DNA from: Cyanobacteria bacterium QS_8_64_29
GTDB taxonomy: Bacteria; Cyanobacteriota; Cyanobacteriia; Cyanobacteriales; Rubidibacteraceae
Assembly: GCA_003022125.1 (NCBI GenBank)
Contig: PXQH01000057.1
Span: forward strand, 18,627 to 60,737
DNA length: 42,111 nucleotides
Direction: 5' to 3'
The notes beneath the pieces were generated by a model. That model had not been told where the DNA came from, did not search any database, and saw only the letters and a list, made by a program, of their open reading frames with translations. Shown here piece after piece: positions 15,986-19,862 of this stretch; the first letter of the stretch is position 1; each line of letters opens with the position of its first letter. The position numbers and the translations under genes are program-made.

Positions 15986-16591
15986 TTAGTGTCCCTGCCA
16001 GCGCTGGAGGGGGACGCAGTCGATGCCAAAGCGATCCAGGGCCCGCGCGACGACAAAATCGACCAAGTCTTCAATCGTTTGCGGTTGGTGGTACCAGCCC
16101 GGCATGGCGGGAACGATGGCAGCCCCCACTTCCGCCAGCGCCGTCAAGTTGCGCAGGTGAATCGCGCTCAGCGGTGTCTCGCGCGGCACCAGCGCGAGCG
16201 GGCGCCCTTCTTTGAGCTGGACTTCGGCGGCACGCTCGAGCAAATCGGAGCTAAACCCGGCTGCGATTTTGCCGATAGCGCTCATGCTGCAGGGAATGAC
16301 CAGCATGCCCAGGGTCCGAAAGGAGCCGCTGGCGATGGCGGCCCCTACATCGCTCCAGCGGTGGCAGTGCAGGGTCCCTGCGCGCTCGACTCCCGCCTGC
16401 TGGCGCCAGAATGCGGCCTGCCGTTCCGGGTCGGCTGGCAGGCGCAGGCCGCGCTCGGCCTCCCACACCATAAAGCTGGACTGGGAGGCCACCAGTTCGA
16501 TGGTGTAGTCTGCCTGGAGTAGGAACTTGAGGGCGCGCTCGGCATAAATGGGACCCGAGGCGCCGCTCACGCCAACGATCAGCGCGCTCAT
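15986..16591 (-). CDS. ubiX: Flavin prenyltransferase UbiX
   Basis: A 201-residue homo-oligomeric flavoprotein that prenylates reduced FMN to make prenyl-FMN, the cofactor of UbiD-type decarboxylases (plastoquinone head-group decarboxylation in cyanobacteria). The features are IVGVSGASGPIYAERAL (FMN phosphate loop), VIPCSMSAIGKIAAGFSSDLLERAAEV, RPLALVPRETPLSAIHLRNL (phosphate-binding Arg and Glu) and IVPAMPGWYHQPQTIEDLVDF. Length and motifs are canonical. Its ATG overlaps the TGA of the upstream RNase II-family gene (ATGA), so the two are likely co-translated. Confidence 0.95.
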   Translation of the reverse strand: MSALIVGVSGASGPIYAERALKFLLQADYTIELVASQSSFMVWEAERGLRLPADPERQAAFWRQQAGVERAGTLHCHRWSDVGAAIASGSFRTLGMLVIPCSMSAIGKIAAGFSSDLLERAAEVQLKEGRPLALVPRETPLSAIHLRNLTALAEVGAAIVPAMPGWYHQPQTIEDLVDFVVARALDRFGIDCVPLQRWQGH

Positions 16592-18879
16592 GCCTCGCTG
16601 GCCTGCACGCTTGCCTGGGCGCCATCGCGCTCGGATGCCTCGGCATCGGTGGCCTCGGCACCACCCACCGCGATCAGATCGATTTGCTGGCGGTAGTAAT
16701 CCACGCTTTTGACCTGCACCTGGACCCGAGCCCCCAGCTTGTAGGTGGTGCGGGTTTTGCGCCCGACGAGGCAGGCATGCCGGGCGCGGTATTCGTACCA
16801 GTCATCTTTGAGTGAGCTGACATGGACCAGTCCCTCGACCAGCAGCGCCTCGATCTCGACAAAGAAGCCGTAGGACTGGACGCCGGTGATGGGACCGACA
16901 AAGACCTCGCCCGTGCGCGCTTTCATCTGGGCAGCTTTTTGCAGGCCCACCAGGTCGGCTTCGGCGTCGGCAATCGTGCGCTCGCGCTCGCCGATTGGGC
17001 CGATCGCGCCGTGGAGGCGCGCTTCCAGATCCGAGTGCACGCGCGCGGGGAGCACGTTCCAGTTGATGCTGTCGTGATTGGCGCTTTTGCCCAGGTCGTA
17101 GCCTTCTTTGGCGCGGCGGTGGCGGCGATCGCGGCCGAACTCGAACAGGGTTTTGAGCGCGCGCTGGACCAGCAAATCGCCGTAGCGCTTGCCAGGGGCC
17201 GTGCAAGGGGCGTAGCCCTCGTCCTCGGCGAGGCCAAAGTAAAACTCGGGCGTTGCGCTCGCGCGCACGGGCTTGAGCGTCGAGCGCAGCAGGTGCGCCA
17301 GGACTTGGGGCGAGGGCGACTGGCTGAATTGGTGGGTAAAGGCCTGGTAGTCCTTGGGCTGCACGGTTTCTGGGTCCGAGAGGCTCAACGCCAGCCCCAG
17401 GTTGTTGCCCAGCCGGATGAGGTCGTTGAGCTCGCCGGGGGGCGGCGCGGACTGGGCCCGGTAGACGCCAGGCAGCGACAGCGCTTGCAAGTGCGCGGCA
17501 ACAGCGCGCCCCGCTAGCACCACCACCTCCCGCAGCAGCGCGCGCACGGGTAGGGCGCTCGAGGTGGCGATCGCGCCCAGGCGCCCCTCATCTTTAAACA
17601 GCGAGCGATCGTCGCCTAGCTCCAGCTCGAAACCGCCGCGCTGGAGCCGCTGGGCTTTGACCAGCGGCGATACCGTAAAAAAGAGCCGATCCAGCATCTG
17701 GATCGCCGCCGCTCGATCGGCGTTGCCTGACTCGCCCTGCCCTAGCAGGGATTGCGCCTGGGCAAAGCTGAGCTGGCGGTCGACGCGCACCACGCTGGGC
17801 GCGAGCTCGAACGACACGAGCCGGCCGGTCTCATTCAGCGTTAGCAAAGCGCTTACCGCCAGCCGATCGGTCTCGGGCTGCAGCGAGCTCTGCTGCAGCA
17901 CGGCCTCAGGGAGCATGGGCAGGACCAACTCCCCCAGATCGGCAGCCGTACCGCGCTTGCGGGCCTCGCGATCAATGGGCCCATCGTCGGGGACGTAGTG
18001 GGCCACATCCGCCATGTGGATGCCCAGCTGCCAGTCGCCGGTTGGCGCGGTCTCTAGGGTGAAGGCGTTCTCAATGAAGGGGGTCTCTGCCGAACGGGGC
18101 GCTTCCTCCAGCGCCAGCGTCAGCTGCTGGCGCAGGTCCTTGCGCTTTTTGATCTCGGGCCGATCGAGCCCCTCGCTCAGCGATTGGGCTGCCTCAGCGA
18201 CGGCGCTGGGGAACTGGCGGGGCAAGTTGTACTTGCAGCAGACCAGATCGGTGTCGGCGGCGGATTCGGGACTGTCGCCCAACACGCGCGTGACGCGCCC
18301 GAGCGGCGGAGTCTGCCCCAGCGGATAGCGCAGCACCTCCACATGGGCCAAGTGCTCGAGCGAAGCTTCCAAGTCGACATCGCCCGCCTCGAGCTCGAGC
18401 TCAAACAGCAAGCGATCGTCGAGCGGGACGGCCCTAAAGCCCGACTCCGAGCGCTGGATCCAAGCCAACAGCGACGGGTTGGCCCGCTCGAGTACGAGCT
18501 GAACCGAGCCTTCCGGCGAGCGGCGGCGGGTTGCTTCTTTGACCACTTTGACCAGCGCCCGATCGCCGTTCCAAGCGCTGCCGAGCTGGCTCTCGCGGAT
18601 GTAGATATCGTCGGCACTCTCATCATGTTCTGGAATGGCAAAGCAAAAGCCTTTGCTGGAGCAGCGCAGCTTGGCCTCGATTGCATCGGGTTGCGGCACG
18701 CGCCGGTACTTGCCGCGCTCTTTGGCGATCGTGCCGGTCCGCTCGAGGGCATCGAGCGCGATGTGGAGCTTTTGCAGGCTCTCCTCGTCCTGGCACTCGA
18801 GCTTTTTCTCCAGAACCTTGGGTGCAACGAGTTTGCTTTCGCTCAGCTGGGAGAGCAACGTCGCGATCGAAAATTCCAT
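16588..18879 (-). CDS. RNase II/R-family (RNB) protein with degenerate active site
   Basis: A 763-residue protein with RNase II/R architecture: N-terminal helical and cold-shock-like domains, a central RNB domain (about 240-600) and a C-terminal S1 domain (TGEVFVGPITGVQSYGFFVEIE). Around the active site the flanks align with the family (LGIHMADVAHYV, IDREARKRGTAADL, VLPMLPE). By hand alignment, however, the four metal-binding Asp positions (E. coli RNase R 272/278/280/281) are Arg262, Phe268, Glu270 and Asn271. The later conserved TSPIRRYxDL block reads TAPGKRYGDLL. It may be an RNA-binding or regulatory paralogue rather than a 3'-5' exonuclease. The start is ATG 18879; the 66 upstream codons lack resemblance. 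Confidence 0.85.
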   Translation of the reverse strand: MEFSIATLLSQLSESKLVAPKVLEKKLECQDEESLQKLHIALDALERTGTIAKERGKYRRVPQPDAIEAKLRCSSKGFCFAIPEHDESADDIYIRESQLGSAWNGDRALVKVVKEATRRRSPEGSVQLVLERANPSLLAWIQRSESGFRAVPLDDRLLFELELEAGDVDLEASLEHLAHVEVLRYPLGQTPPLGRVTRVLGDSPESAADTDLVCCKYNLPRQFPSAVAEAAQSLSEGLDRPEIKKRKDLRQQLTLALEEAPRSAETPFIENAFTLETAPTGDWQLGIHMADVAHYVPDDGPIDREARKRGTAADLGELVLPMLPEAVLQQSSLQPETDRLAVSALLTLNETGRLVSFELAPSVVRVDRQLSFAQAQSLLGQGESGNADRAAAIQMLDRLFFTVSPLVKAQRLQRGGFELELGDDRSLFKDEGRLGAIATSSALPVRALLREVVVLAGRAVAAHLQALSLPGVYRAQSAPPPGELNDLIRLGNNLGLALSLSDPETVQPKDYQAFTHQFSQSPSPQVLAHLLRSTLKPVRASATPEFYFGLAEDEGYAPCTAPGKRYGDLLVQRALKTLFEFGRDRRHRRAKEGYDLGKSANHDSINWNVLPARVHSDLEARLHGAIGPIGERERTIADAEADLVGLQKAAQMKARTGEVFVGPITGVQSYGFFVEIEALLVEGLVHVSSLKDDWYEYRARHACLVGRKTRTTYKLGARVQVQVKSVDYYRQQIDLIAVGGAEATDAEASERDGAQASVQASEA

Positions 18880-19145: not shown

Positions 19146-19862
19146 ATGGCAAGCGCTCCAGCTGCTTGCTCCATGTACCGCCAGTTTCGAACGGCCTATC
19201 CGCAAGGCGGGCTGACGAGCGAGCTGATCGCCATCGACCGCGGCCGGTATTTGGTGCGGGCGAGCGTTCGCGACGGCGATACCACGCTCGCGACCGGGCT
19301 AGCTGGGGCCGAGACGATCGAGCAAGCCGAGGACGAAGCGCGCCGCCGCGCGCTGGCTGCCCTCGCCCTTGAGAGTAAGGCAGAGGCGGCGGATCGAGCC
19401 CCTGATGCGGTATCGGCAGCAAGCCCCAGCACCCCCGAGCCTGCCCCACCGGCTGCAACCGATCCCCCCAGCCCGCCCGATCCGCCGTCGCTGGAAGCGC
19501 CCGTCCCGAACGCGTCGCTCGAGGCCGAAGCTGGTAGCAACGGCCATGCGAGCGTGGCAACCCCCGAAGCGCCTGCCCCATCTGCCCCCCAGGAGGCCCC
19601 ACCGCTAGAGGCCGAGGCGCCTGCGAGCGAGGCAGCGGCCCCGGCCGCCGATGGTGCCGAGTCCGAGTCCATCGATTTTTCCGATCTGATCGCCCGGACG
19701 GATGTGGAACTCAAACGCCTGGGCTGGACGCGAGAGCGAGGGCGCGATTACCTGCTCAACACCTACGGCAAGCGATCGCGCCAATTGCTCAGCGAGAGCG
19801 AACTGACGGCGTTTTTGCGCTACCTCGAGGCACAACCGTCCCCTGAAGAGGGAGCAAACTAG
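19146..19862 (+). CDS. Two-domain conserved hypothetical protein with Pro/Ala/Glu linker
   Basis: A protein of about 238 residues. A compact N-terminal domain ([20 protein letters not shown], then [10 protein letters not shown] and [17 protein letters not shown]) of about 70 residues is followed by a 110-residue linker almost wholly Pro, Ala, Glu and Ser. A C-terminal domain of about 55 residues ([20 protein letters not shown], then [14 protein letters not shown]) ends the protein. The N-terminal part resembles a conserved cyanobacterial family by memory; no function is known to me. The start could be ATG 19146 or ATG 19173, and the longer form is given. Its stop shares CTAG with the clpP stop. 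Confidence 0.65.

Follow-up and report, generated by a model that had tools for sequence, protein, structure and literature searches.

Zam, a known cyanobacterial RNase relative with a decayed cutting site, and graded decay of that site across the family

The Zam proteins are an RNB family found across cyanobacteria, with degenerate active sites and conserved CSD1, CSD2 and S1 domains (PMC9145284). According to the parts of that work cited here, "most", not all, Zams are without the four acids of the metal site, and C73 and C79 form a redox-active pair that is required in vivo. In PCC 7002, the gel mobility of Zam is redox-dependent, Cys mutants lose function, and deletion of zam lowers phycocyanin synthesis. 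The need for a redox-active disulfide in vivo and the acetazolamide resistance that follows zam deletion are described for both PCC 7002 and PCC 6803. Thomas et al. proposed that Zam is a catalytically inactive RNB protein, maybe kept for RNA binding or regulation (PMC9145284). In the cited sections, purified PCC 7002 Zam displayed neither nuclease nor RNA-binding activity, and since the purified protein aggregates, Thomas et al. urge caution on these negatives. Conversely, passages of a review state that Anabaena Alr1240 degrades unstructured RNA like RNase II, and that it complexes with RNase E and stimulates it (PMC10989914). According to Thomas et al., the protein in the Alr1240 study is Zam. 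RNase II is itself a known RNase E partner (PMC10783494). Among the matches listed from the open-access literature, we found no further paper on Zam active sites beyond PMC9145284.

A second group of proteins resembles Zam from a distance. The fungal Ssd1 pseudonucleases belong to the RNase II family, have lost catalysis and conserve their cold-shock domains (PMC8934651, PMC8097288, in part). Fungal Dis3L2 has lost its active site on at least four occasions, with conservation of its cold-shock domains (PMC8097288); in yeast, Ssd1 uses its surface, not the internal path, to bind RNA (PMC8934651). Ssd1 descends from Dis3L2 and is a lineage separate from Zam, and structural alignment places 7am1 at 18% identity to the protein described here.

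The window, by which we mean the whole 42,111-nt stretch of DNA that was analysed, encodes a protein of 763 aa on the minus strand (16588-18879, start ATG at 18879), delimited by its open reading frame, translation and Pfam matches. Residues M1 and F3 are invariant among 46 aligned Zams. The domains, all on the minus strand and all above their Pfam cut-offs, are a CSD1/OB domain (OB_RNB, residues 70-127, 18499-18672), CSD2 (PF17876, residues 171-224, 18208-18369), the RNB domain (PF00773, residues 246-578, 17146-18144, E 7.3e-63) and S1 (PF00575, residues 654-735, 16675-16920). By sequence, RNase R chains are the closest solved relatives. The structure predicted from the 46 aligned Zams (mean pLDDT 91.2, pTM 0.87) has the RNase II/R fold as modelled, with RNase R as the top PDB hits: 8cdu_C (Z 43.2, rmsd 3.8, 628 aligned) and 5xgu_B (Z 40.8, rmsd 3.5, 598 aligned). 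These domain and fold matches bear out the original prediction of an RNB-family protein that retains S1 and the RNB fold. RNase R of E. coli (5xgu), B. subtilis (8cdu) and M. genitalium (7dcy) has the same fold and domain order. The E. coli and B. subtilis enzymes also carry four catalytic Asp and TSPIRRY, both of which are absent from the window protein. It falls short of the cut-off for the RNase R equivalog TIGR02063 (397.1 vs 597.85 bits) and for TIGR00358, the VacB/RNase II 3'-5' exoribonuclease superfamily (297.4 vs 368.6 bits).

Two readings of the metal site were made, one from a MAFFT alignment that sets the window protein against portions of RNase R from E. coli and B. subtilis, the other from a profile HMM built on 18 RNB proteins of the active type. 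In both, the ALE of the window protein falls on the family TID, making Glu258 (18106-18108, minus strand) the residue at the first catalytic Asp position. Phe268 (18076-18078) lies at the second position by alignment, and Glu270 and Asn271 (18067-18072) lie at the third and fourth; the profile HMM reproduces the mapping of Glu258, Glu270 and Asn271. Profile-profile comparison of Zams with active RNBs gave a probability of 100. In the predicted structure, strand 255-258 ends at residue 258. The original prediction, from a hand alignment, had named Arg262, Phe268, Glu270 and Asn271 at the four positions. Three of the four agree with our alignments, and the loss of metal-site Asp stands at those positions; Arg262 (18094-18096) was misaligned, lying four residues past the right column, and the correct codon for Glu258 sits just outside the interval 18061-18105 first given for the site. 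With Glu258 as the first-site residue, the four positions show two Asp-to-Glu changes, one Asn and one Phe.

The rest of the active site is altered as well. The TSPIRRYxDL block has become TAPGKRYGDLL (residues 560-570, 17170-17202, minus strand), as predicted, and within it Lys564 (17188-17190) occupies the position of the catalytic RNB Arg. In place of four catalytic Asp and a catalytic Arg, the window protein has E, F, E, N and K564. Asp314 (17938-17940) aligns with the Tyr of the RNase R GTSVYFPS block. At positions one and three, every one of the 22 non-Zam RNB rows of the alignment carries Asp. In E. coli RNase II, changing Asp209 to Asn is enough to kill activity while RNA binding is kept, and Arg500 is part of the active site (PMC3293843, cited parts). 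This was the only paper on metal-site Asp mutants found among the matches listed from the open-access literature. Glu259 and Glu265 were considered as compensating acids and rejected; judged by eye, their loop varies in length and letters among Zams.

The window protein is Zam. It has the CSD1-CSD2-RNB-S1 order, degenerate metal-site acids and, in CSD1, the published redox pair Cys73 (18661-18663) and Cys79 (18643-18645, both minus strand; role from PMC9145284), each of which is Cys in 179 of 182 genomes. In a quick tree, 58 Zam representatives and 8 other RNB rows were split by a branch with support 100. Its E-F-E-N state is identical to that of the Zam L020 in genome G058. Compared with the Zam of PMC9145284, the window protein shows the same order of domains, a decayed RNB site and Cys73/Cys79, and its genome likewise has a second RNB gene (Rnb). 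No substantive difference was seen; the window only adds Asp in place of the RNB Tyr and the overlap of 4 nt with ubiX. A promising-looking lead is in this way settled as a published family. The decayed site had been reported in 2022 (Thomas et al., PMC9145284), and the original prediction was largely correct.

Two RNB genes were found in the genome of the window. A search for a second, intact RNB gene had been suggested, and the search recovered L001, which shares the RNB domain with the window Zam but differs from it in a D-E-D-D site and TSPIRRYADL. We take L001 to be the orthologue of Sll1290, the Rnb of Synechocystis. Sll1290 is an RNase II-like enzyme (PMC3293843, cited parts). The 2012 abstract of the same paper gives Synechocystis a single RNase II-family member, and the later review lists both sll1290 and sll1910 (PMC10989914, cited parts). 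L001 scores only 189.4 bits against TIGR00358, below its cut-off; since its site looks intact, this score reflects likeness to RNase R and not activity.

Zam matches (E 1e-30 or better) occur in 186 of 386 genomes of the phylum, and all 186 belong to the window's class. Of the genomes with no match, the 20 that are listed fall outside this class; a further 180 are unlisted. The RNB domain itself turned up in 194 of these 386 genomes. Our census took one Zam each from 182 of the 186 matching genomes, leaving four out. The site could be read in 181; the exception, L342, has a frame of 273 aa. None of the 181 has acids at all four positions. Three acids are present in 4, two in 55, one in 70 and none in 52, counts to be read with the first- and second-position columns uncertain in the Zams with the strongest decay (family f25, x-P-L-P), which offer little to anchor the alignment. 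The Glu-Asn pair at the third and fourth positions is common (71 of 181), and the exact E-F-E-N combination is found in 7. When six stretches were compared by mean column entropy in 149 Zams, CSD1 (0.58 bits) and S1 (0.64) varied least and the active-site stretch, at 2.35, varied most; RNB reached 1.93. This pattern agrees with the published one (PMC9145284, cited parts).

Some Zams keep much more of the site. Asp-Asp occupies the third and fourth positions in 9 of the 181, with the catalytic Arg in 8 of these 9. Three of the 9 are D-A-D-D, with Asp at three of the four positions, and a search of genome contigs added two further D-A-D-D loci, L110 and L111. Both redox Cys are kept in all 11 Asp-Asp Zams. 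We note that the D-A-D-D proteins L113, L145, L146, L110 and L111 each have both the catalytic Arg and the two redox Cys. The two D-A-D-D proteins that were scored, L113 and L145, exceed the TIGR00358 cut-off of 368.6 (445.9 and 446.3 bits) and fall below that of RNase_R (563.9 and 582.2 vs 597.85 bits). Together, these scores and site states indicate that Zams range from proteins close to RNase R to others whose site has decayed completely, a modest addition to the published picture. Zams of the D-A-D-D or Asp-Asp type may still be able to cut RNA. It is tempting to read the family as a graded series, in which a minority are redox-gated RNase R enzymes with Asp-Asp, the Cys pair and usually the Arg, and most, the window Zam included, have lost catalysis. 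We hold this reading only tentatively and would sooner bet against it. If it is true, the Cys switch arose on or alongside an active enzyme and then outlived the activity, much as fungal Dis3L2/Ssd1 kept a function independent of the nuclease after catalysis had gone. Orthologues of Zam that retain three of the four Asp give a natural comparison for asking at what point, and for what reason, the nuclease disappeared. The same comparison bears on the conflict between the Anabaena protein, reported active, and the inactive PCC 7002 protein.

Several independent losses of the catalytic site were considered, and neither the gene tree nor the Rpo tree, both with weak backbones, shows them. The quick Zam tree was built without the active-site columns from 58 representatives of 220 aligned Zams (below 68% identity, rows under 600 aa dropped), and includes 4 of the 11 Asp-Asp proteins. 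On it, a single clade (support 91) holds the rows that lack Asp-Asp, and one change suffices for the Asp-Asp state. On a RpoB/RpoC1/RpoC2 tree of 30 genomes and two outgroups, with RpoC1 missing in three genomes, the same state needs two changes; a single clade of genomes without Asp-Asp was not rejected on the Rpo data (p-AU 0.256). The Zam gene data did not reject the window's order, including the Asp-Asp family f4, as one clade (p-AU 0.496); of the 33 rows counted in that order, 10 were assigned by hand from record titles or by judgement. If the taxonomy holds and f4 belongs inside the window's order, at least two losses follow.

What does the window Zam do? From its residues we infer that it no longer degrades RNA. 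We think it likely that this RNase R-like protein with its decayed site has lost RNA degradation and instead binds RNA or RNase E under redox control. In this organism, such a protein would switch its binding of RNA or RNase E with redox state and without catalysis. The redox and phenotype steps would carry over by orthology from PCC 7002 and the RNase E step from Anabaena, while the connection between redox and RNase E was proposed by Thomas et al. By analogy, Zam plausibly works like fungal Dis3L2/Ssd1, as a separate lineage. Two published results count against parts of this model: the PCC 7002 protein showed no RNA binding, which weighs on the RNA-binding step, and the RNase II-like activity of Alr1240 weighs on the non-catalytic reading. 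The retention of much of the metal site in some Zams of the census also speaks against full inactivity. The original prediction of an inactive RNB protein kept for RNA binding or regulation is in line with the proposal of Thomas et al. for Zam, and is tempered by the activity that the review reports for Alr1240.

That activity is also an argument that the window Zam could be a weak exoribonuclease, with Glu258 and Glu270 holding metal and slow hydrolysis persisting. Two of its four positions are still acidic, and Glu-Asn recurs in 71 of the 181 genomes. Even so, we regard slow hydrolysis as unlikely. The other two positions are Phe and Asn, Lys replaces the catalytic Arg, the single Asp209-to-Asn change abolishes RNase II activity, and PCC 7002 Zam was without activity in the cited sections of PMC9145284. 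The TIGR00358 score below cut-off points the same way, though the active-looking L001 is also below it. A further point against is that 52 of 181 Zams have no acid at any of the four positions. Decay of the whole gene into a pseudogene would explain the missing catalytic residues, and seems extremely unlikely for a full-length frame with every domain in place and with strong conservation of CSD1 and S1 throughout the class.

The gene context suggested a further role. Immediately downstream of zam lies a UbiX-family flavin prenyltransferase gene (15986-16591, minus strand; Pfam Flavoprotein; TIGR00421 168.5 bits, cut-off 108.9), whose start shares 4 nt (ATGA) with the end of zam. The overlap raises the idea that Zam regulates or partners UbiX. 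We surveyed the best 80 loci, which are the nearest relatives and not an even sample, and 75 of them had more than 700 nt downstream. A ubiX start on the same strand lies within 400 nt in 18 of the 75 and within 500 nt in two more; the remaining 55 have no ubiX that close. The commoner neighbour is an slr1353-family gene divergent from zam (19173-19862, plus strand in the window; NCBIfam NF058667 189.3 bits, cut-off 100; start set by eye, on a Met close to the family match), with a relative upstream in 55 of the 69 loci with room. The passages of PMC9145284 cited here do not mention ubiX. A UbiX partnership is very unlikely, and we rejected ubiX as a functional clue because its neighbourhood is not conserved. 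Co-translation of zam and ubiX, which had been predicted, remains plausible in the window genome given the overlap, but the general link fails and it is no family trait. We favor redox-switched binding as the function of the window Zam.

Several Zams are unusual in other ways. A contig titled Candidatus Gracilibacteria holds a cyanobacterial-type Zam (L053, 57% identity) and is probably a mis-binned MAG contig. The Crocosphaera MAG MO_202.B2 has two distinct Zam loci (L062 and L075), a duplicate gene or a mixed bin. In genome G241, downstream of the 273-aa frame of L342 come an internal stop and another stretch that matches, possibly a broken zam. A separate 177-aa frame (G129:C6:1830271-1830666) has 67% identity to residues 618-743 of the window Zam and lies about 3 kb from a full-length zam, as if the S1 part had been duplicated. 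Finally, the Zams of genus g11 (L128, L129, L130 and L246-L248) carry a long, acidic-looking insert in the former active-site loop.
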